Of a DNA stretch of 64,000 bases, positions 48,681 to 57,796 are shown one piece after another (the first letter of the stretch is position 1; every line of letters begins with the position of its first letter). The stretch comes from Arthrobacter sp. JZ12 (GTDB lineage Bacteria > Actinomycetota > Actinomycetes > Actinomycetales > Micrococcaceae), in assembly GCF_035189165.1 (NCBI RefSeq), contig NZ_CP045246.1, forward strand, positions 2,852,001 through 2,916,000, in the 5' to 3' direction. The notes under the pieces are model-generated. The model saw nothing but the letters and a program-made list of their open reading frames with translations, searched no databases and was not told the DNA's origin. A program made the position numbers and the translations under genes.

Positions 48681-49835
48681 ATGACTGTTGACCTGTTGTC
48701 CATTGACTCGCTCCTGTCTGAGGAGGAGTTGTCGCTGCGTGCGCGTGTCCGCTCATTTGTGGAGTCGGAGATCAAGCCGAACATCGCCGGGTGGTACGAG
48801 GATGCGGTGTTCCCGCTGGAGATCGTGCCGAAGATGGCGGAACTGGGGCTGCTCGGCATGCACATCAAGGGGTACGGTTGCCCCGGCCGCAGCTCGGTGG
48901 AGTACGGGCTGGCGGCGATGGAACTGGAGGCCGGCGACTCGGGGCTGCGGACGTTCGTGAGTGTGCAGGGGTCGCTGGCGATGAGCGCTCTGGCCAAGCA
49001 CGGGTCCGAGGAGCAAAAGAACGAGTGGCTGCCGCGGATGGCCAAGGGCGAGGTGATTGGCTGCTTCGGGCTGACAGAGCCGGGGTCGGGGTCCGATCCG
49101 GGGTCGATGACCACCAACGCCCGGCGCGACGGCGACGGCTGGGTGCTCAACGGTGCCAAGCGGTGGATCGGGCTGGCAACGGTTGCACAGGTCGCGATCA
49201 TTTGGGCCATGACCGACGACGGCATCCGCGGCTTTGTGGTGCCGACCGACTCGCCGGGGTTCACGGCGACCGCAATCACGCAGAAGCTGTCGATGCGGGC
49301 GTCGATCCAGTGCGACATCACGCTTGAGGACGTGCGACTGCCGGAGTCGGCGATGCTGCCGAACGCGAAGGGGCTGCGTGGGCCGTTCGAGTGCCTGAAC
49401 GAGGCGCGGTACGGGATCATCTGGGGTGCGATGGGTGCTGCGCGGGACAGTTACGAGGCGGCGCTGGCGTATTCGAAGGAGCGTCTGCAGTTCGGCAAGC
49501 CGCTGACCGGGTATCAGATCACGCAGCAGAAGCTAGTGAACATGGCGCTGGAGATCAACAAGGGAACGTTGGTCGCCCTGCAGACCGGACGGCTGAAGGA
49601 TGCCGGGACGCTGGAACCGTGGCAGATCTCTGTGGGGAAGCTGAACAACTGCCGCGAGGCGATCCAGATCTGCCGGGAGGCGCGGGCGATGCTCGGCGGC
49701 AACGGGATCACCTTGGACTATTCGCCGCTGCGGCATGCGAACAACCTGGAGAGCGTGCGCACGTACGAGGGCACCGATGAGGTGCACACCCTGATCCTGG
49801 GCAACAAGATCACGGGTACGCAAGCGTTCCGGTGA
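48681..49835 (+). CDS. gcdH: acyl-CoA dehydrogenase, glutaryl-CoA dehydrogenase-like
   Basis: A 384-residue flavoprotein. CFGLTEPGSGSDPGSM and RTFVSVQGSLAM resemble glutaryl-CoA dehydrogenase more than other acyl-CoA dehydrogenases, and the catalytic base is E363 in TYEGTDEVHTLILGNKITG. Glutaryl-CoA dehydrogenase converts glutaryl-CoA to crotonyl-CoA and CO2. A related decarboxylating or non-decarboxylating substrate is possible. It is the last gene of the cluster and forms the left border of the less G+C-rich island; a degenerate copy of its last 28 codons occurs at 53977-54061. Confidence 0.88.
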   Translation: MTVDLLSIDSLLSEEELSLRARVRSFVESEIKPNIAGWYEDAVFPLEIVPKMAELGLLGMHIKGYGCPGRSSVEYGLAAMELEAGDSGLRTFVSVQGSLAMSALAKHGSEEQKNEWLPRMAKGEVIGCFGLTEPGSGSDPGSMTTNARRDGDGWVLNGAKRWIGLATVAQVAIIWAMTDDGIRGFVVPTDSPGFTATAITQKLSMRASIQCDITLEDVRLPESAMLPNAKGLRGPFECLNEARYGIIWGAMGAARDSYEAALAYSKERLQFGKPLTGYQITQQKLVNMALEINKGTLVALQTGRLKDAGTLEPWQISVGKLNNCREAIQICREARAMLGGNGITLDYSPLRHANNLESVRTYEGTDEVHTLILGNKITGTQAFR

Positions 49836-50319
49836 GCGCTGGGTCTTCGGATGTCCCGGGGAGCTTGCGTTGATAGACCACGCCGACCAGGTCGCATCGA
49901 CGGTGGCGTGTCCCTTGCTCACCTGTTCAAGACAAGGCAAGATTCCGAGAGGCTTGGGAAGCAGAAGAGGTGACTCTTGCCCGCCAACACGCCATCGTCG
50001 ATTAGCTCATTGATCGAGTCTGGAGAAACACCTTGGTCCAACAGCTCTTTCCCGGGCGATCTAAATCGGCAGGCGTGCGGTGATGCCTGTCTTGGGAGGG
50101 CGCTATATTTGGGAGGGCTTGTCTGGCACGGTCGAGTGCTGAACGGCCAGGTCACCCTCCTCAGTTTGCCCGCGCCTGATCTTGCCACCGAGGAAGGTGA
50201 AAAATACACATAGTCGCCCATCGAGTACGTTGCTGACAAGTCAAGCCAAAGTGGGCGGCATCGGAGCCATTCCGGCACACCCTAGTGTTCGCCTTTTTGA
50301 CGGTGTTTCGGGAGAGCCT
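49836..50319. other. left part of the island, no confident gene
   Basis: 484 bases separate the acyl-CoA dehydrogenase stop and the end of the DUF6414-like gene. Composition is mixed. Only one frame is noteworthy: a minus-strand frame at 49919-50278. I see no tRNA, integrase or insertion-sequence end here. Confidence 0.5.
49919..50278 (-). CDS. hypothetical 119-residue frame downstream of the DUF6414-like gene
   Basis: This frame starts 41 bases after the DUF6414-like stop on the same strand and ends before the acyl-CoA dehydrogenase gene. Its last 50 residues (KELLDQGVSPDSINELIDDG and following) look protein-like, whereas the first half is rich in Arg, Cys and Pro and looks like non-coding translation. 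There is no good ribosome binding site. It may be a gene remnant, or nothing. Confidence 0.25.
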   Translation of the reverse strand: MPEWLRCRPLWLDLSATYSMGDYVYFSPSSVARSGAGKLRRVTWPFSTRPCQTSPPKYSALPRQASPHACRFRSPGKELLDQGVSPDSINELIDDGVLAGKSHLFCFPSLSESCLVLNR

Positions 50320-51285
50320 TCAAATGAAGATAGCCATGGGAAGCACCTGTATAGCCGGTCCGCTCACAATCGCGTCGGGAACGTCCAGATTGAAGTCATC
50401 TGAGTTCGTAACCGAATTGAGAACGTCGTTCGCCAAGGCAGGTCCTGCCACTCCAAGAACTGTTCTTCGCATCAGATTTATGGATTGGCCTTCCTCCAGC
50501 ACTCTGGTCACCTTTCCGATGACGCGGAACTCGCCAGCGCGCAGATGCTCAGTTGTGGTGGCGGAGTAGTAAAGCGAAGCCACCGTGACCACGGCTTCGA
50601 GCTCGTGTTCGGTCCGAAACAGAAGATCGTGGACAGGCGCTGACTTTATATCTTGACTCATCCGCCGCAACACACGAATGCCCTCTTCCGAAGGATTCTC
50701 CTCGACGACTGGTTGCTGGACTTGATGCTGTGTCGAGGCTTTGACTGCGGGATTGCCAGAGCGACTCTTTTGAGCTCTAGTCTGAACCGTAGGCGCAGGT
50801 TCGACCTTCGCCGGCTCATCCTCCTCGATATAGGGCAGAAACGCATCGAAGAACGCAAGGACATTCTCAATTGGGTTCCCTAGGAACTCACCAGAAAACT
50901 CTACCAACTGCCCATTCTGCACTTCAGTGAGCTGACCGGGATCGTCAAGGCGAATCGTTTTCCCATCTTCGGTCAGGTAGTCATATAGCAGGTTGAAGAG
51001 GCTCGCCTCAGTATGATGTCGTTCCGTTTGAGATTCAACCTGGGTTTCGTCCCGATTTTGCTGGCTCCCTTCGCCTTCGAAGTTCGCGTCACCAATCGCG
51101 AAGAGCTTCGCACGAATTCCCCCACGAGCCTTCAGAAATCGCTCACGAGCCCCAGTGGCAGTGGTCCTTTCGCTCTCCGAGACCGAAACTCCGCCTTCAA
51201 GATGCGCAAGAAAACTCAACATCATTTGCACATCTAGATAGATGGGGTGGGCCAACCCGTAGCCAGCATCATTCTGAATGGTCAC
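50320..51285 (-). CDS. DUF6414-like protein of the putative defence island
   Basis: The 321-residue product begins with a GTG and near its N-terminus has HPIYLDVQMMLSFLAHLEGGVSVSE, which resembles the start of DUF6414 proteins (recognised from memory, not searched). A charged, low-complexity linker (about residues 155-195) separates an N-terminal domain from a C-terminal domain with LRAGEFRVIGKVTRVLEEGQ. No catalytic motif or membrane segment is visible. It is divergent from the ATPase-HNH pair across 260 bases and shares their lower G+C content, which suggests that it arrived with them; whether it works with them is unknown. Confidence 0.7.
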   Translation of the reverse strand: MTIQNDAGYGLAHPIYLDVQMMLSFLAHLEGGVSVSESERTTATGARERFLKARGGIRAKLFAIGDANFEGEGSQQNRDETQVESQTERHHTEASLFNLLYDYLTEDGKTIRLDDPGQLTEVQNGQLVEFSGEFLGNPIENVLAFFDAFLPYIEEDEPAKVEPAPTVQTRAQKSRSGNPAVKASTQHQVQQPVVEENPSEEGIRVLRRMSQDIKSAPVHDLLFRTEHELEAVVTVASLYYSATTTEHLRAGEFRVIGKVTRVLEEGQSINLMRRTVLGVAGPALANDVLNSVTNSDDFNLDVPDAIVSGPAIQVLPMAIFI

Positions 51286-51545
51286 AAGTTCACCATAGGC
51301 GCTGGGACAAGAGGAGACTGCAAGTGTCGATCGGCAGGAGCGAGGAAGTATGAAACGATTTGCTTCCTTCGCGGTCTAATTCTACTCGATCGCTGCGTTC
51401 TCTATCCCGGTTCCCACCGCGATCTTCTTTGGTTGGCTGCCACTCCATTTATGATTGACGAGTGATAGGTGTTCAGGTGTCCATCTTCTCTTAGAGCGGC
51501 GCTCCGGCTCGTATTTGCAATATAAACCCCTTTGGGAGGCAGCGA
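51286..51545. other. divergent promoter region of the putative defence module
   Basis: 260 bases, A+T-richer than most of the window, separate the DUF6414-like gene from the ATPase gene and must hold both promoters. The ATPase start is preceded by GGGAGG. I could not identify a defined promoter or operator. Confidence 0.5.
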
Positions 51546-53051
51546 GTGAAATTTCGCGTGATCGACGGTTTCGGAGCCGTCAGCAAACCGCCCCATGAGA
51601 CCCTCGTCCTACTAAGGCGCAACTCGTGGGACGACTTCACGTTCAAAACTTCCTTCGAAGCGGAATTGCTGCGCCCGGTCGGCGACCCAGTCGACCTTGG
51701 ACTTGTCAAGATCCTCAGAGCTGGACAGCGGACGGGCCCGACAACGTTCGAAGCCAATGAATTCGAAGCGCTGGGCAGCGATTACTGCTCGCTCGGCCAA
51801 GACATCGAATTCTACGAGAAGCTGACTGCTCTTGCTGAAGAAGAGCGAGTCGTCTTCCTGCGATCGATCCGAGATGCCGCGACGGATAAGGAGATAGCCG
51901 CAACATTTGAAGGCGAAGAAGGCTGGAATAAGTCGCTACTCCGATTCGGACAGGCCGAGCACACTCTTGCTTCCGCAAGCTCGCTCTTCGATGGAACGGA
52001 ACCCTCCGAAGGAATAATGTTCTTTACTCATCGAAGCCGTGAGCTCGATGCAGAGATCCGTTTCGACTTTGATGACTCAGACGTGCTTCCCGGACGTTGT
52101 AAGGTTTTGATCGGCTACAACGGCGTTGGCAAGACGCGGTTACTCGCCGACCTAGCGAGGGCAACAAGTAAGGTAGGACAATCTCCGGAGAATCATGGAG
52201 GAAGTGAAAGTCTGTTCAGCGCTGTCCTGGCGGTCTCGTATAGCGCGTTCGATACCTTTGAACTGCCTCCATCGGCTGGCCATACGTTCAACGGAGGCGG
52301 CGACGCTGATCACCAGCCCGTAACAACGTATTTTGGATACACCTATTGTGGACTCCGCCGCCTAGAAAATGGCCAAGCTAGTTCCCAACTGAAATCGATT
52401 CACGAGCTGACTATCGAGCTTTCAGACGCTTTCCGCCTAGCCTGCAGCCGCGATGCAAGCGCACTTAATCAAGCACTCAGAGACCTCGAACTGGACCCTT
52501 CATTCGGACGATCAGGCTTGAGCTTATCAAAATGGGTTACCGTCGGTGAGTTACCTGACGAAGAATTGGGGATGCTCAGCGCCGGACAGAAGATTGTGAT
52601 CAACATCATCGTTCAGCTGGGCGCACATCTTCGTAATCGCTCTCTAGTTCTAATCGACGAGCCAGAAACACATTTGCATCCTTCCCTTTTAGCAGCCCTC
52701 CTGCGGGGAACTCAAAAACTTCTAGACGGCTTCGATTCATTCGCGATTATCGCCACTCACAGTCCAGTCGTCCTTCAAGAGGTGCCTGCCAAAGATGTGC
52801 AGGTGATTGAGAGGTTCGGCAGTACCATTCGCGCTGTTGACCCTCAGCTTGAAACGTTCGGAGCCGGGCTCGGCGAACTTACGCATGAGGCGTTCGGACT
52901 CGACAACTCTGTGTCTGACTACCGTACTGTGATTCGCGAACTCGCACAGAAGTTGAGCCATGATGAGCTCGAGCAACTGTTTCCCCTAGGGCTCAGCAGT
53001 CAGGCCCGAGCTCTAGCTCTGCGCGCCAGAGGTGCTTCGCGAACGAGATGA
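51546..53051 (+). CDS. AAA/ABC-type ATPase of a Septu-like defence pair
   Basis: The 501-residue protein has an uncharacterised N-terminal region (about 1-180) and then a split ABC-type ATPase domain as in OLD, RecF and PtuA proteins: Walker A GYNGVGKT (190-197), signature LSAGQK (344-349), Walker B LVLIDEPETHLHP (367-379) and the switch His in ATHSP (403-407). All catalytic motifs are intact. The GTG at 51546 follows GGGAGG. Its stop overlaps the ATG of an HNH nuclease gene (ATGA). An ATPase of this class coupled to an HNH protein is the layout of the Septu anti-phage system (PtuA-PtuB); membership is inferred. Confidence 0.85.
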   Translation: MKFRVIDGFGAVSKPPHETLVLLRRNSWDDFTFKTSFEAELLRPVGDPVDLGLVKILRAGQRTGPTTFEANEFEALGSDYCSLGQDIEFYEKLTALAEEERVVFLRSIRDAATDKEIAATFEGEEGWNKSLLRFGQAEHTLASASSLFDGTEPSEGIMFFTHRSRELDAEIRFDFDDSDVLPGRCKVLIGYNGVGKTRLLADLARATSKVGQSPENHGGSESLFSAVLAVSYSAFDTFELPPSAGHTFNGGGDADHQPVTTYFGYTYCGLRRLENGQASSQLKSIHELTIELSDAFRLACSRDASALNQALRDLELDPSFGRSGLSLSKWVTVGELPDEELGMLSAGQKIVINIIVQLGAHLRNRSLVLIDEPETHLHPSLLAALLRGTQKLLDGFDSFAIIATHSPVVLQEVPAKDVQVIERFGSTIRAVDPQLETFGAGLGELTHEAFGLDNSVSDYRTVIRELAQKLSHDELEQLFPLGLSSQARALALRARGASRTR

Positions 53052-53890
53052 GGACTCTTACACCGCCTGTGATCGACGAACGCGACCTTTATGACCGCCT
53101 ACGAGCACGCCGGAACCGCGATATTGCGACCGTGCTCGTAAATGTCAGGCAGGCTGTATTTGGAGCCTACATCCAGTACAAGCTCGGGGAACTTTGCAGC
53201 CTGGCGACTGTCATCGACGATGACGATACAGCCCAGAAAGTCCGGTCGAATTACGAGGTTTTGAGATCAGGCGCGCTCGTTGATGATGGTGCAAAAATCT
53301 TGGCGCGTAGCAGGATTTGCTGTCTGTGTGGTCTCCGCCCCACGAGCGAGCTCGATCATTATCTTCCTAAGCAGCTATTCCCCGAATTTGCTGCTCTCAC
53401 AGTCAACTTGGTTCCCGTCTGCGGCGTCTGCAACAAGCGAAAGGACCAGCTGTACAAGACTGACTTGGGGGATCCTGCATTCATCCACGCCTACCTCGAT
53501 CAGCTTCCAGGATCAGAGCCCTTCCTGCGGGCAACCTTGGAAGTTGGCGACGGCATTATTCCTTCATTCGAGATCGTGCAAGCGTCCGGGCTACCGGACA
53601 AAACCTTTCGAGTTCTCGTCTCACACTTCGCCCATTTCCAGTTGGGTACGGTCTATTCGGAAGAGGCAGTTGAGCTGCTCTATGAGAAGAGCGTTGCTAT
53701 TGCGGACTTCTATTCTGAGGGTGGACCTACCGGCGTGGAAAAGTACCTGCGACTTGAAGCGCTGAGCACTGCCCGGCACTTCGGTCTTAATCACTGGAAA
53801 CCGGCCACGCTCACTGCGGCCGCCGAGTCCGCGGACTTCTGCGGAGGTGGTTTCCGGCTTCTGATCTCGACATCCGACCGCAGCCATTGA
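53048..53890 (+). CDS. HNH endonuclease of a Septu-like defence pair
   Basis: The 280-residue protein carries a zinc-stabilised HNH motif at residues 91-131: CCLCG, then LDHYLPKQLFPEF with the general-base His (D103-H104), Asn120 in VNLVPVC, and CGVCNKRK. The two CxxC pairs are complete, so nuclease activity is plausible. The helical N-terminal (1-85) and C-terminal (140-280) regions are not familiar and make it longer than the smallest PtuB proteins. It overlaps the ATPase gene by four bases, implying equal synthesis of the two as parts of one complex. Confidence 0.82.
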   Translation: MRTLTPPVIDERDLYDRLRARRNRDIATVLVNVRQAVFGAYIQYKLGELCSLATVIDDDDTAQKVRSNYEVLRSGALVDDGAKILARSRICCLCGLRPTSELDHYLPKQLFPEFAALTVNLVPVCGVCNKRKDQLYKTDLGDPAFIHAYLDQLPGSEPFLRATLEVGDGIIPSFEIVQASGLPDKTFRVLVSHFAHFQLGTVYSEEAVELLYEKSVAIADFYSEGGPTGVEKYLRLEALSTARHFGLNHWKPATLTAAAESADFCGGGFRLLISTSDRSH

Positions 53891-54144
53891 TGCCGCGGAA
53901 GTTTGAACGACGCAGGTTTGCCTAGCAAGCAACTAGTCAATCAGGTCTAACCCGGAGTCGATGACGTCCAATTAAGAGCGTGCTCACATTCGAGGGGGCC
54001 CACGAGGGGCACAACCTGATCCTGGACAACAAGATCACGGTGACGGCTGCCCTTCCGGTGAATCATCGTGGAGCCAGCCGCCGCTGGCCATTTACGTGCC
54101 GGGTTACCTAATGAAAACTCGAAGCGGTTCCTCCCTCTCGGCGA
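53891..54144. other. right border of the island
   Basis: 254 bases between the HNH gene and the end of the histidine-kinase gene. It contains the acyl-CoA dehydrogenase remnant at 53977-54061 and otherwise no gene. Confidence 0.6.
53977..54061 (+). pseudogene. degenerate copy of an acyl-CoA dehydrogenase 3' end
   Basis: These 85 bases align with 49752-49835, the last 28 codons of the acyl-CoA dehydrogenase gene: by hand, 54 of the first 65 positions match, then one base is inserted. The frame still reads SVLTFEGAHEGHNLILDNKI against SVRTYEGTDEVHTLILGNKI. Nothing upstream continues the gene, so it is a fragment at the island's right edge. Confidence 0.85.
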
Positions 54145-55680
54145 CTAGGCACCCCTTGTGCTGGACGCATCTGGCGATATCGACCGGGGATGAGCGGAGT
54201 TCGTGCCCTTTGGAAGACGGACGGTGAAGCTGGTGCTACCCGGTTCACTGTGCACAGTGATCTGCCCTTGGTGAGCACGAACGATTGCGTCGACTATAGA
54301 CAATCCCAACCCTGACGTCGCGTGCCCGCCGGTTCGTGCTTTGTCGGCACGGGTGAAGCGGGAGAAGACGTGGTCGAGGAATTCGGGCGGAATGCCGGGG
54401 CCATCGTCGGTCACCGTGAGCCTGATCTGATCGTTCTCCATGGTCACGCTTGTCACGACAGTGGTTCCAGGACTGGTGTGCTTGTGCGCGTTGGAGAGGA
54501 GGTTGATGAGGACTTGGCGCAGGTGATTTGCATTTCCGCGGATGACGACGGGCTCCTCGGGGAGATGCACGCTCCACTGTTGCTCAGGAGCGGTAATCCG
54601 GATGTCACTTACGGCCTCGATGATGAGTTCCGTTATGTCGACGTCCTCATCGACCGCGGAGTGGCCCTCATCGAGCCAGGCGAGGAGGAGCAGATCTTCA
54701 ACGAGGGTGGTCATTCTTTGAGTCTCGGATTCAACCCTCCGCAGTGAAGCGTCGCCTTTTGGCCCAAGGTGTTCTGTCATTCGAATCAGCTCGGAGTGGC
54801 CTCGGATCGCAGCCAAAGGTGTGCGCAACTCATGGCTGGCATCTGCCACAAACTGACGGACTTGCGTTTCGCTGCGCTGTCGAGCGTTGAGGGCACTGGC
54901 AACGTGATCGAGCATTTTATTGAAGGCGTGTCCCATGTTGCCCACTTCGGTTTGAGGGGAACCTGAGGTAACACGTGCAGCCAATACAACTTCCCCCACA
55001 TCGAGGGGTAATTCGGCGACGTTGGTTGCTACTTTCGACAGGTTATCCAAGGGGCGAAGAGTTCGGCGGATGACGAATGCCGCTGAGAGTCCGGTGACAA
55101 TAAGCCCTGCTAGGGAAATGCCGGCCATTGCGCTTGCCAGTGAATTCAAGGTGGCGTCTCTATCAGCTGTAGGCAGTCCTGTTATGAGGATGTCCCCTTC
55201 CGTGTCATCCACAGCGATCAGGCGGTACCGGCCTACGGACAGTAAGCGCTCCGCGGGCTCGCTGCTTTCGGGCAGACTGTTGATTATTGGGATGTCTGCA
55301 GGCGGTAGATCCTCGTGTTCCTCATCGATGGAGTACAGCGCGGAAAAATAGACTTCACCATCGGATCGGTAGGCGCTGAGCGTGCCTGCGCCTTGATTGG
55401 GCAGAGCGTCCCTTTCCACCTGTGATGTCCGCCGGGGTATGGGGTCTCCAAACCTGATCGTTCGGTTCGAGGCCTCGTGCAGTTCGCGGTCAAGTTGTTG
55501 GGTGAGGATTACATTCACCGCGGCGTAGCCAAGAATGCCCAACGCACTGCATATCGCGGTGAGTAGGAGCAGGGTCAACACCGACAACTTAGTCCGCAGT
55601 TTCCACGAGGAAACCTTCCAGCGGGAGGGAGAGTTCCCCTTTTGTGCAGCCCCTAAGGGCTCAGCCGCCGGAGTCTCCAT
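54145..55680 (-). CDS. membrane sensor histidine kinase
   Basis: A 511-residue kinase. One helix (about residues 33-57), an extracytoplasmic sensor region, a second helix (about 175-200) and a HAMP segment (LRPLDNLSKVATNVAEL) are followed by HisKA with the phosphorylation site in VADASHELRTPLAAIRG and a catalytic domain with LLSNAHKHT, DDGPGIPPEF and GLGLSIV. All motifs are intact. Its start overlaps the end of the response-regulator gene by 20 bases, so the two form an operon and a functional pair. Confidence 0.94.
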   Translation of the reverse strand: METPAAEPLGAAQKGNSPSRWKVSSWKLRTKLSVLTLLLLTAICSALGILGYAAVNVILTQQLDRELHEASNRTIRFGDPIPRRTSQVERDALPNQGAGTLSAYRSDGEVYFSALYSIDEEHEDLPPADIPIINSLPESSEPAERLLSVGRYRLIAVDDTEGDILITGLPTADRDATLNSLASAMAGISLAGLIVTGLSAAFVIRRTLRPLDNLSKVATNVAELPLDVGEVVLAARVTSGSPQTEVGNMGHAFNKMLDHVASALNARQRSETQVRQFVADASHELRTPLAAIRGHSELIRMTEHLGPKGDASLRRVESETQRMTTLVEDLLLLAWLDEGHSAVDEDVDITELIIEAVSDIRITAPEQQWSVHLPEEPVVIRGNANHLRQVLINLLSNAHKHTSPGTTVVTSVTMENDQIRLTVTDDGPGIPPEFLDHVFSRFTRADKARTGGHATSGLGLSIVDAIVRAHQGQITVHSEPGSTSFTVRLPKGTNSAHPRSISPDASSTRGA

Positions 55681-56431
55681 GACTTTCCTTTGCTGGCTTG
55701 AGTACGTATCCGGCGCCGCGCACGGTATGAATCATGGGTTCGCGGCCCATATCGATCTTCTTCCGCAGGTAAGAGATGTTCAGTTCGACGACGTTCAGTT
55801 GGCCGTCAAAGCCGTGGTCCCAGACATGGTCCATGATCTGGCTCTTGCTCAGGACGTGCCGGGAGTTCTCCATGAGGAAACGGAGTAGGTTGAACTGGGT
55901 TGCTGTTAGCTGAATGTCCTGGCCGGCACGGTTGACTTCACGCGTATCCAGATTCATGGATAGGTCACCAACTACCAGCCTGACGTTGTCAGCGGCGGTG
56001 ATCCCTGAGCGTTGAACCAGCCTGTGTAAGCGCAGGACGACTTCCTCCAGGCTGAAGGGTTTCGTGACGTAATCGTCGCCTCCTGCAGTGAGGCCGGTGA
56101 TTCGGTCCTCCACGCGCCCCTTCGCGGTCAGGAAAAGCGCGGCAATGTTGGGATCGTGGTCCCGAATCTTGCGTAGGACTTCAACACCGTCCAGCCCAGG
56201 AAGCATCACGTCCAGCACCAGAACATCCGGGCGGAACCGCTGGGCAAGTTGAACAGCAGAAAGGCCGTCCGCTGCCACCGTAACGTCCCATCCCGACAGT
56301 CTGAGTACCGAGCTCATCACCTCAGAGAGCGCAGGCTCATCATCGACCACCAAAGCTCGCACCCGAGACCCATCGAAGCGCCGCAATAGTGGCAAGTGCG
56401 CCATCATCGAGCCCCACGTGTCCGAGGTCAT
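55661..56431 (-). CDS. OmpR-type response regulator
   Basis: A 256-residue regulator with about 24 extra N-terminal residues before the receiver core (ALVVDDEPA). The acidic cluster D30-D31, phospho-acceptor D74 in VLVLDVMLP and K124 in VTKPFS are all present. The winged-helix domain ends TVRGAGYVLKP. It is the partner of the downstream histidine kinase. A GAGGGAG element precedes the ATG at some distance. It is divergent from the membrane acyltransferase-like gene, which may be a target. Confidence 0.94.
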   Translation of the reverse strand: MTSDTWGSMMAHLPLLRRFDGSRVRALVVDDEPALSEVMSSVLRLSGWDVTVAADGLSAVQLAQRFRPDVLVLDVMLPGLDGVEVLRKIRDHDPNIAALFLTAKGRVEDRITGLTAGGDDYVTKPFSLEEVVLRLHRLVQRSGITAADNVRLVVGDLSMNLDTREVNRAGQDIQLTATQFNLLRFLMENSRHVLSKSQIMDHVWDHGFDGQLNVVELNISYLRKKIDMGREPMIHTVRGAGYVLKPAKESHGDSGG

Positions 56432-56623
56432 GGATGCATTCTCCCTCTTGCGAAAAATGGTTCAAGGGTTCCCTAGCAACTAGTCGGCAGCGGGGTGAAG
56501 GCCCGGTCAATATGTTGGCGGTTGTTAACGGCAAACTCACAGGACTCCTATAACTCAGGCATAGCGCAGCCTGCTGGACTAGTAGCGGTTGACGGCTAGG
56601 CAGTATGAGTAGAGGAGAATTAG

Positions 56624-57796
56624 ATGCGGTTCTCTGGCGCTGTGAAAAGGACCCGGATGCTCGGGGTCGATGCAGCACGCGGTGTCGCCTTGGTCGGGCT
56701 AATGATCATCCATATTCTCTCGGGCACAAATGACGACGACGGCCCGACTGTTTTGTGGACAATATTCGCCGGCCATTCGGCCGCCTTGTTCGCCCTGTTG
56801 GCGGGAGTGTCGCTCGCTTTTATCTCCGGAGGCCAGCACCCGGTGAAAGGCCCTGCGCTTAGGGCCACTCGATGGTCGGTCGCGGTCCGTGCCGGTCTCA
56901 TCACAGCCCTGGGGCTCTCGATCGCTTACATCGATACGCCGCCGTCGATCATTCTGGCCTACTACGGCGTGATGTTTATGCTGGCGATCCCGTTGCTTCG
57001 ACTCTCCGCCAAATCACTGGCTTTCCTTGCCGCGGGCCTGGCGGTGGTGGGCCCGCTCGCTGTGCAGGCTCTGCGGGACTTCTTGCCGGAACCTGGTTCC
57101 GATCCTACTTTCACAACACTTTTCACCGAACCCGATGTGCTCTTCAGTCAACTGCTCTTGACCGGTGAGTATCCTGCTCTGCCGTACATGGCTTACCTCT
57201 GCGCCGGGCTGGCCCTCGGTCGACTGGACCTCAGCTCCCGCATGGTACAGATCCGCGTGGCGTTGACCGGCCTGATTCTGACGATCGCCAGCTGGCTGTT
57301 TTCGGTCGTTCTCCTGGGTCCGCTCGGAGGGATGAGCCGTTTGCTGGAGTCGTCACCCGAAATGAGCGCCGACATCATCGACGAGATGCTGATCTGGGGG
57401 CCTGAAGAGTATCTGCCAACCACTTCATTGTGGTGGCACGCCGTCGTTGCGCCCTACTCGACCACAATCCTGGAAATGGTGAACACCACCGGCACATCCA
57501 TCGCCGCACTAGGGTTGATACTGCTCCTCGCCCGCCTCACCACGGAGCCGCTGATGCCGCTGGTCGCTATGGGCAGCATGACGTTGACCCTCTACTCGGC
57601 ACACCTCATCATCCTCGCAACCGGCTTCTTGGAAGACCAATCCGACGCTTCCCTCATCGTCCAGATCGCTGTCGCCGCCCTCTTCGCTTCTCTGTGGCGA
57701 AGAATCCACGATCACGGGCCGCTGGAGAGCCTCATCGCAACTGCAACAAGACGCACCCGCACTCGCCTGTCAGGGAAGTCTTCGATAGCCGGCTGA
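56624..57796 (+). CDS. heparan-alpha-glucosaminide N-acetyltransferase-like membrane protein (DUF1624/DUF418)
   Basis: A 390-residue membrane protein with about ten helices. The N-terminal MLGVDAARGVALVGLMIIHI with an Asp-Ala-x-Arg-Gly motif and the conserved His at the end of helix 1 is shared by the DUF1624/HGSNAT and DUF418 families, which move acyl groups across membranes onto cell-surface glycans. The substrate is unknown. GAGGAGAATTAG precedes the ATG. Its divergence from the two-component operon suggests regulation by it. Confidence 0.82.
   Translation: MRFSGAVKRTRMLGVDAARGVALVGLMIIHILSGTNDDDGPTVLWTIFAGHSAALFALLAGVSLAFISGGQHPVKGPALRATRWSVAVRAGLITALGLSIAYIDTPPSIILAYYGVMFMLAIPLLRLSAKSLAFLAAGLAVVGPLAVQALRDFLPEPGSDPTFTTLFTEPDVLFSQLLLTGEYPALPYMAYLCAGLALGRLDLSSRMVQIRVALTGLILTIASWLFSVVLLGPLGGMSRLLESSPEMSADIIDEMLIWGPEEYLPTTSLWWHAVVAPYSTTILEMVNTTGTSIAALGLILLLARLTTEPLMPLVAMGSMTLTLYSAHLIILATGFLEDQSDASLIVQIAVAALFASLWRRIHDHGPLESLIATATRRTRTRLSGKSSIAG

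Follow-up and report, generated by a model that had tools for sequence, protein, structure and literature searches.

Positions 50320-53890 of the window (the whole 64,000-nucleotide stretch of Arthrobacter sp. JZ12 contig NZ_CP045246.1 that was analysed) hold three intact genes, whose coordinates and reading frames were checked and found correct (Table 1). Two lie on the plus strand and encode an ABC-type ATPase and an HNH endonuclease, the start of the latter overlapping the stop of the former by ATGA; the third encodes a DUF6414 protein and diverges from this pair, head to head with the ATPase gene across 260 bp. The ATPase gene opens with GTG, with GGGAGG six bases ahead of it. An earlier note, made from the sequence alone, had pointed to the overlap, the divergent third gene and a visibly lower G+C content of all three, and each observation holds: the G+C content of the three genes is 0.543 (54.3%) versus about 65% around them, and in 99 windows of 3.57 kb, taken with 49.8-57 kb left out, it averages 0.651 with a minimum of 0.622. 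Promoter and terminator scans gave no excess over shuffled sequences.

Table 1. Features of the locus, in positions of the window
Feature	Position	Strand	Extent	Basis or remark
Acyl-CoA dehydrogenase gene, 3' end	49750..49835	+		Intact direct-repeat copy; gene identified by inspecting its translation
DUF6414 protein	50320..51285	-	321 aa	Pfam, E 1.7e-45; on inserted segment
PtuA-like ABC-type ATPase (PDC-M01A)	51546..53051	+	501 aa	PADLOC, Pfam, AlphaFold2/Foldseek
N-terminal domain coding region of the ATPase	51546..51995	+	residues 1-150	
HNH endonuclease (PDC-M01B, PtuB-like core)	53048..53890	+	280 aa	PADLOC, E 1.4e-44
Second copy of acyl-CoA dehydrogenase 3' end	53975..54061	+		Degenerate; right boundary of inserted segment

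The 3' end of the upstream gene is present twice, once on either side of the three genes, which suggests that one insertion probably brought all three. The right copy is 80% identical to the left (E 1.2e-14), and among the direct repeats reported within 49600-57600 the one formed by these two acyl-CoA dehydrogenase 3' ends is the longest (71 nt at 83%). No clean empty site was found among 13 relatives fetched (38 genomes searched), since none of them carries a second 3'-end copy in the 2.2-9.4 kb examined; in these relatives other genes follow the acyl-CoA dehydrogenase. An integrase-borne island was considered and rejected, as integrases are absent from the three scanned genes between the repeats (a 119-aa open frame lay outside the scan).

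The ATPase comprises an N-terminal, family-specific domain, from residue 1 to about 150, followed by an ABC/AAA core. The full set of motifs that had been read in it is present: Walker A (GYNGVGKT, near 190-197, with Lys196), a signature-like LSAGQK, Walker B (LVLIDEPE, near 367-374, with Asp371-Glu372) and an H-loop (THSP, His405), and residues K196, D371, E372 and H405 are invariant among 36 aligned sequences. It matches the PADLOC model PDC-M01A over residues 1-489 of 501 (E 1.2e-115), the PADLOC PtuA1 model PDLC00282 over its length (E 7.6e-79) and Pfam AAA_21 (E 1.6e-10). An AlphaFold2 model (pLDDT 86), compared with the PDB by Foldseek, retrieved at ranks 1-43 chains that all belong, by title, to Septu or retron complexes; by sequence profile the closest PDB chain is 9kjx_B (E 1.6e-17). 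Pfam gives no TOPRIM match, and an OLD/Gabija-type nuclease was accordingly discarded.

With Walker A at about residue 190, the extension of roughly 180 residues remarked on in the earlier note is real, and it is a family-defining trait: an N-terminal domain some 150 residues long is common to the aligned family, is conserved across phyla, is covered by the PADLOC PDC-M01A models and contains invariant D30, L76, Y90, S130 and R133. Folded alone, it is predicted with a pLDDT of 90. No relative was found in the PDB by fold (best Foldseek E 0.15) or by sequence profile (best E 0.08), and the best fold match in BFVD had an E of 0.48.

The HNH protein matches PADLOC PDC-M01B over residues 1-270 of 280, the 25 PADLOC models listed of 46 all being PDC-M01B, and has no match in Pfam. 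Its zinc-binding Cys pairs (Cys91/94/125/128) and catalytic His104 are complete, as had been noticed, and together with Asn120 are invariant among 40 aligned sequences. The HNH profile aligned with one canonical PtuB at Prob 94 and E 8.5e-8, in an alignment that does not extend beyond the HNH core; against the PDB it matched other HNH-nuclease chains (E 1.3e-5) better than retron PtuB (0.005).

The earlier note had proposed a Septu-like ATPase-HNH module and an HMM search of both proteins; that search placed both in one candidate defence family, with PtuA1 matched by the ATPase in addition. The pair is thus the PADLOC candidate system PDC-M01, already catalogued. Among ten aligned sequences of each protein, PDC-M01A and PDC-M01B matched 10/10 ATPases and 10/10 HNH proteins, and PDLC00282 likewise matched 10/10 aligned ATPase sequences. 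The window copy shares with the family near full-length matches of both proteins, N-terminal domain included, and the A-B gene order; no difference was found in the features compared, although the copy is divergent.

Conservation of this operon is pronounced. Among the matches listed, an HNH gene lies directly 3' of the ATPase gene in 48/48 other loci from genomes and plasmids (39 had no role in building the HNH profile) and in 63/66 viral-contig loci, the other three being contigs that end just past the ATPase gene; 80 of 104 viral-contig loci were examined. These counts exclude 40 weak-match genome loci (L050-L089), four of which hold a PtuB-like HNH gene, and 14 weak-match viral loci. Ninety-one plasmid records match the ATPase, 58 of them over at least 80% of its length, and seven of the 91 were fetched. 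Type I restriction enzymes, type II methylases, LmuB, argonaute-associated proteins and HamB are among the 25 families listed (of 132) in a survey, run without a control set, of the 135 genes nearest the pair at 39 genome loci. In a tree of the ATPase phyla are mixed, and the window copy stands beside two Rhodococcus plasmid copies, the nearest with 45% identity to it. A widespread candidate defence family thereby gains an actinobacterial and clearly mobile member.

As in Septu type I, the gene of an HNH protein comes after that of an ABC-type ATPase; the best fold matches of the window ATPase are Septu and retron PtuA, and the His-Asn-Cys spacing of the HNH core (His to Asn +16, His to second CxxC +21) is identical in six Septu-type PtuBs. 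The pair departs from the minimal Septu architecture, in which Walker A lies near the N-terminus and PtuB has about 210-230 aa. In a set of nine Septu-type reference loci, three of them confirmed PtuA1/PtuB1, Walker A lies at residue 29-33 of 412-431 aa in six, at 67 and 94 in two (probably overlong start calls), and the last is a fragment; the reference HNH proteins measure 210-228 aa in seven loci and are shorter, at 186 and 114 aa, in the other two, versus 280 aa here. PMC13096335 puts the Walker Lys of Septu EcB88 PtuA at 43, compared with 196 in the window ATPase. In the tree, 45 PDC-M01A rows, the window copy among them, are split at 100/100 from 8 canonical PtuA rows, under a midpoint root and with four of the 48 other ATPases (L030, L034, L047, L049) left out. 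The reading in the earlier note is supported in part: the locus holds a Septu-like ATPase-HNH module of a candidate defence family, whose N-terminal domain is absent from the minimal Septu-type reference loci found, and this kind of pair had already been catalogued as PDC-M01. The closest solved structures to the ATPase, by profile and fold, are PtuA/PtuB of the type I-A retron Ec78/Eco7 and those of Ec83; a type I-A retron, which would have a reverse transcriptase gene and msr/msd next to PtuAB, was rejected on finding no reverse transcriptase in ten neighbouring proteins scanned and nothing in Rfam across 49836-54145 at E values up to 0.1.

Labelled DUF6414-like in the earlier note, the product of the third gene is a true member of Pfam DUF6414, a family that includes DolA of Dodola. 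Three of nine other DUF6414 proteins (L109, L114, L116) match DolA at 4.1e-71 or better, whereas the window protein matches no PADLOC model, DolA included, up to E 10, and is longer (321 aa versus 258 for the DolA model). Its gene adjoins the PDC-M01 ATPase gene on one side and the 119-aa open frame on the other, without a DolB-type AAA+ gene beside it, and a Dodola reading was rejected in the absence of a DolA match. At DUF6414 loci elsewhere the partners are of the AAA+ and not the ABC type, both in Dodola and in a second group that resembles IetA: DolB was matched by 5/96 scanned neighbour proteins of 15 loci, and the families listed (25 of 158 and 25 of 88) also include IetA, Gabija and integrases. 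In the sequence examined, the window protein's nearest homologues (L124/L250, L125/L251) show no adjoining AAA+ gene, contig L250 ending 0.3 kb past the gene. That DUF6414 contains DolA connects a family without a name to Dodola, and also to another AAA+ pairing that is probably IetA-like.

The two families were not found to travel together. Among the matches listed, DUF6414 occurs at 0/48 other genome and plasmid loci and 0/66 viral loci of the pair (0/114), and is absent also from the 54 weak-match loci (40 genome, 14 viral); conversely, the pair occurs at 0/34 DUF6414 loci. In Actinomycetota samples DUF6414 was present in 23/392 genomes and the ATPase in 4/396, with both only in the window's genome. 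Detection, over limited flanks, used a 16-sequence profile for genome and plasmid loci, which found 17/19 loci outside its training set (L250-L268), and a 12-sequence profile for viral loci, which found 6/7 held-out proteins (L096 missed); combined, they found 33/34 DUF6414 loci (L267 missed, although its DUF6414 gene was recognised in another comparison). Single-protein searches gave no plasmid, phage or viral-contig match, a weak method given that phmmer with a single DUF6414 protein was blind to other DUF6414 proteins in loci known to hold one; the counts therefore rest on the profiles. As co-occurrence was found in neither direction, the DUF6414 gene probably does not belong to the pair; it is probably a distinct gene, associated with defence and carried on the same insert.

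From these results we conclude that the two plus-strand genes very probably constitute an intact, horizontally moving, putative two-gene anti-phage module of PDC-M01 type, in a clade related to Septu. The basis is the family, the motifs, the conserved A-B operon, the plasmid and viral-contig settings and the nearby defence genes; on the other side weigh the PtuB resemblance limited to the HNH core, the better PDB matches of the HNH profile to other HNH nucleases and the distance in the tree between these ATPases and canonical PtuA. An ATPase-HNH pair serving other ends, such as DNA repair or the maintenance of a plasmid or some other element, could be argued from those same plasmids and viral contigs, where upkeep functions also sit, and from NCBIfam, in which all matches of the ATPase fall under the cut-offs (best 25 of 31) and the HNH protein has none. 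We consider it very unlikely: the best-scoring PADLOC models belong to defence systems (as do all models in that library), the pair has restriction and other defence genes in its vicinity, and PtuAB, to which it is related, has been tested as a defence effector. For PDC-M01 itself no assay was found in the accessible literature, where the passages naming it give predictions only.

The earlier note had also raised a new three-component system. In such a system the divergent DUF6414 protein would act as sensor, regulator or antitoxin of the pair in this lineage. Common low G+C, head-to-head genes and a single bracketing repeat are what such a system might present, DUF6414 proteins do adjoin AAA+ ATPases elsewhere, and one insertion holding all three genes is also expected of a three-gene unit. 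Against this, however, stand the absence of co-occurrence in both directions, the single Actinomycetota genome with both families and the AAA+, not ABC-type, nature of DUF6414 partners; the pair being PDC-M01 and its extension family-wide, the proposal is not sustained. It now seems extremely improbable, and the third gene an unlikely conserved component of the pair. A further reading, of two independent defence units in which a stand-alone DUF6414 gene has its own anti-phage activity beside the PDC-M01 pair, is possible while falling short of probable. The inclusion of DolA in the family, the DolB, IetA, Gabija and integrase families near DUF6414 loci, and nearest homologues without an adjoining AAA+ gene speak for it; the lack of a PADLOC match and the early end of contig L250 weigh on the other side, and we know of no activity of a lone DUF6414 protein.

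For the two-gene module, target, trigger and oligomer are carried over by analogy from Septu and retron PtuAB. PMC13096335 reports that tRNA-Tyr is cut in E. coli Septu EcB88 and that mutations in the Walker or HNH motifs abolish immunity, and PMC11555353 reports degradation of tRNA-Tyr by retron-Eco7 PtuAB. By this analogy an ATP-bound ATPase oligomer would restrain the HNH protein until a signal of infection, which the N-terminal domain might detect, altered the ATPase; the released HNH protein would then cleave nucleic acid (tRNA or DNA) and halt the infected cell before phage release, as abortive infection. Tentatively, and as a rather doubtful extension, PDC-M01 may form a separate Septu-like class whose fused N-terminal domain detects infection or determines what an ATP-gated HNH nuclease cuts, replacing in one polypeptide the role of the retron RT-msDNA. 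The domain, conserved across phyla and confidently predicted with no solved relative found, lies where a trigger sensor could be.

The ATPase and the HNH endonuclease constitute a real module of known kind, a new member of the PADLOC candidate system PDC-M01. HMM searches of both proteins, the course suggested by the earlier note, gave PDC-M01A as the best PADLOC model for the ATPase (residues 1-489, E 1.2e-115) and PDC-M01B for the HNH protein (residues 1-270, E 1.4e-44); these families were also matched by all ten members of the first ATPase alignment and all ten of the first HNH alignment. One PtuA1 (Septu) model likewise spans ATPase residues 15-490 (E 7.6e-79). Among the NCBIfam matches listed for the ATPase (25 of 31), all lay under their cut-offs, and a Pfam search of the HNH protein returned no match. 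Pairs of this kind are already in print as candidates: excerpts of a Bacillus cereus group study record 41 PDC-M01 calls duplicating Septu calls, and place PDC-M01 among candidates given other names by DefenseFinder (PMC11811056). In excerpts of the literature naming PDC-M01, no assay of it was found. Inspection of reading frames bore out the claim that the genes are intact, and the GTG start of the ATPase gene coincides with the start position of most aligned relatives.

Features of the pair, the divergent DUF6414 gene and their flanks (window positions)
Feature	Position	Strand	Remarks
Upstream gene 3' end (last 86 bp), acyl-CoA dehydrogenase by eye	49750-49835		Intact copy of direct repeat
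DUF6414 gene	50320-51285	-	260 bp from ATPase gene
ATPase gene	51546-53051	+	GTG start, six bases 3' of GGGAGG
HNH gene		+	Start overlaps ATPase stop by ATGA
Second copy of the upstream gene 3' end	53975-54061		Degenerate; 84 bp 3' of HNH gene
Two-component genes (sensor kinase and response regulator)	54145-56431		Right of repeat; Pfam

The two genes of the pair travel together. Genome contigs scanned with the ATPase alignment yielded at least 79 loci, at least 39 of them with a family ATPase; with these 39, two further genome loci and seven of 91 plasmid records, an HNH gene adjoins the family ATPase in all 48 loci besides the window, as judged with an HNH profile built without the 39 scan loci. 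Among the best 80 of 104 viral-contig loci, 66 have a family ATPase, and in 62 of these an HNH gene counts as adjacent by the rule used; in one more (L188) the pair is present with a frame overlap slightly beyond that rule, and the remaining three contigs stop directly after the ATPase. Within the relatives set of 147 genomes, the window's own included, three have the ATPase, and a phylum sample added two genomes, one of which (L130) bears the pair. The other, a further Actinomycetota genome (L131, 1021-2471), has a truncated ATPase frame and an HNH frame split in two, so that its copy of the pair looks decayed. Phyla are intermixed in the tree, where the window groups with two Rhodococcus plasmid copies (96/99). 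A survey of the 135 genes nearest to the pair at 39 genome loci, counted by family without a control set, included restriction, methylase, Lamassu, argonaute-associated and Hachiman proteins among the families listed (25 of 132). In Pseudomonadota and Acidobacteriota, large proteins that are 46% identical are encoded immediately 5' of the pair (L013:3658-6936, 1093 aa; L016:3812-6814, 1001 aa), the former matching AAA_21, plus Ppl at its C-terminus; in three other loci (L018, L023, L039) a gene of comparable length comes before the pair.

The long N-terminal extension of the ATPase, previously regarded as a departure from minimal Septu, is present as described and is a trait of the family, not an oddity of this copy. 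Across 36 ATPase sequences D30, L76, Y90, S130 and R133 are invariant, and W28, T35, G52, K55, F73, S82, G84 and D110 nearly so. AlphaFold2 predicts five strands followed by five helices; block pLDDT over residues 21-130 is 93-97 when the whole protein is modelled and 90-97 for the domain alone. Fold searches with this domain found nothing better than E 0.15 in the PDB or 0.48 in BFVD, and a sequence search of the PDB gave no clear relative (best E 0.08). With the whole ATPase model, the top 43 Foldseek matches are chains that, going by their titles, come from Septu and retron complexes; their query TM-scores (0.22-0.41) are as expected if the core is common to both and the first domain is not. 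In nine Septu-type loci from the same scans, three of them confirmed as PtuA1/PtuB1 pairs, Walker A lies at residue 29-33 of 412-431 in six; the other three comprise a fragment and two with Walker A at 67 and 94, probably overlong start calls.

Resemblance to Septu extends in part to the nuclease. The HNH core spacing equals that of six Septu-type PtuBs (His to Asn 16, His to second CxxC 21), and the His-Asn distance is also that of Septu EcB88, for which excerpts report H75 and N91, with K43 and D316 of PtuA, as essential (PMC13096335). Against close kinship, the profile match to PtuB is confined to the HNH core, and in the PDB other HNH chains outscore retron PtuB.

The pair is a mobile operon with the families and motifs observed here. 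Judging from the structure titles of the Foldseek matches, ATPases of PtuA type keep HNH nucleases of PtuB type in large complexes. A Septu structure study reportedly found inhibition by ATP. According to excerpts, tRNA-Tyr is cut or depleted by Septu EcB88 and retron-Eco7 PtuAB, and another Septu is reported to act on DNA (PMC13096335, PMC11555353). From such complexes and cleavages, ATP-gated, infection-triggered cleavage of nucleic acid, with tRNA or DNA as possible target, would be expected of the pair, together with abortive infection. The N-terminal domain would be the likeliest sensor or target selector and, with no solved relative found, is the part worth following.

The earlier note entertained a three-component system that takes in the divergent gene. 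The three-gene segment is indeed less G+C-rich than its surroundings (54.3%, where 99 same-length windows outside 49.8-57 kb average 65.1% and fall no lower than 62.2%), and the duplicated acyl-CoA dehydrogenase 3' end brackets all three genes. No second copy of that end was present in the fetched sequence of 13 relatives; in 12 of these a same-strand gene of 569-588 aa directly follows the dehydrogenase gene, and this follower is missing there in the window. The one example read (L133) looks by eye like a dihydroxy-acid dehydratase; its nearest match in the window's own genome (57%) is located elsewhere. The interval between the repeats showed no integrase. On the simplest view a single insertion brought in all three genes, which would give them a common composition without a common function. 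The low-G+C stretch is moreover wider than the three genes, since the adjoining two-component genes are also lowered (58.2%); these may have been acquired as well, given that composition and longer DNA matches of about 72% or less in other species of the genus. Between the dehydrogenase gene and DUF6414 lies an open frame of 119 aa (49919-50278, minus strand), which may be a remnant or chance.

Co-occurrence, the note's own test, argues against the three-gene idea within the collections and profiles used. DUF6414 profiles found nothing in the 88 loci L002-L089, with as much as 7 kb of flank covered (shorter where contigs end, and 1.5 kb in L002 and L003), nor in the best 80 of 104 viral loci, with as much as 4 kb of flank; pair loci make up 114 of the 168. 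Conversely, 34 DUF6414 loci yielded neither a family ATPase nor a family HNH; weak ATPase-profile matches in two of them, L109 and L112 (E 1.1e-5 and 8.6e-4), had no HNH match beside them. In Actinomycetota samples DUF6414 occurred in 23 of 392 genomes and the ATPase in four of 396, the two being found together only in the window's genome. In all likelihood DUF6414 is either a passenger or a further defence gene.

Its product is a true DUF6414 protein (Pfam, E 1.7e-45), a name under which no literature was found. When nine other DUF6414 proteins were compared with DolA of Dodola, three matched (E 4.1e-71 or better); the remaining six did not, nor did the window protein. Scanning 96 of 153 neighbour proteins at 15 DUF6414 loci gave, among the families listed (25 of 158), five matches to DolB, three to IetA, two to GajA and two to GajB. 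Beside the genes of the window protein's two closest homologues (28% and 25% identity) no AAA+ gene was seen, one contig stopping 0.3 kb past the gene. Mutually alike AAA+ genes overlap or adjoin DUF6414 in nine loci (L109, L110, L113, L114, L116, L117, L254, L260, L267). In L110:6647-9312, L113:7652-10368, L117:6736-9197 and L254:3976-6875 the DUF6414 protein is long (424-487 aa) and its gene overlaps or adjoins an AAA+ gene (402-481 aa); the three IetA-matching neighbours are probably these AAA+ partners, and the combination looks to be a different sort of two-gene unit resembling Dodola.
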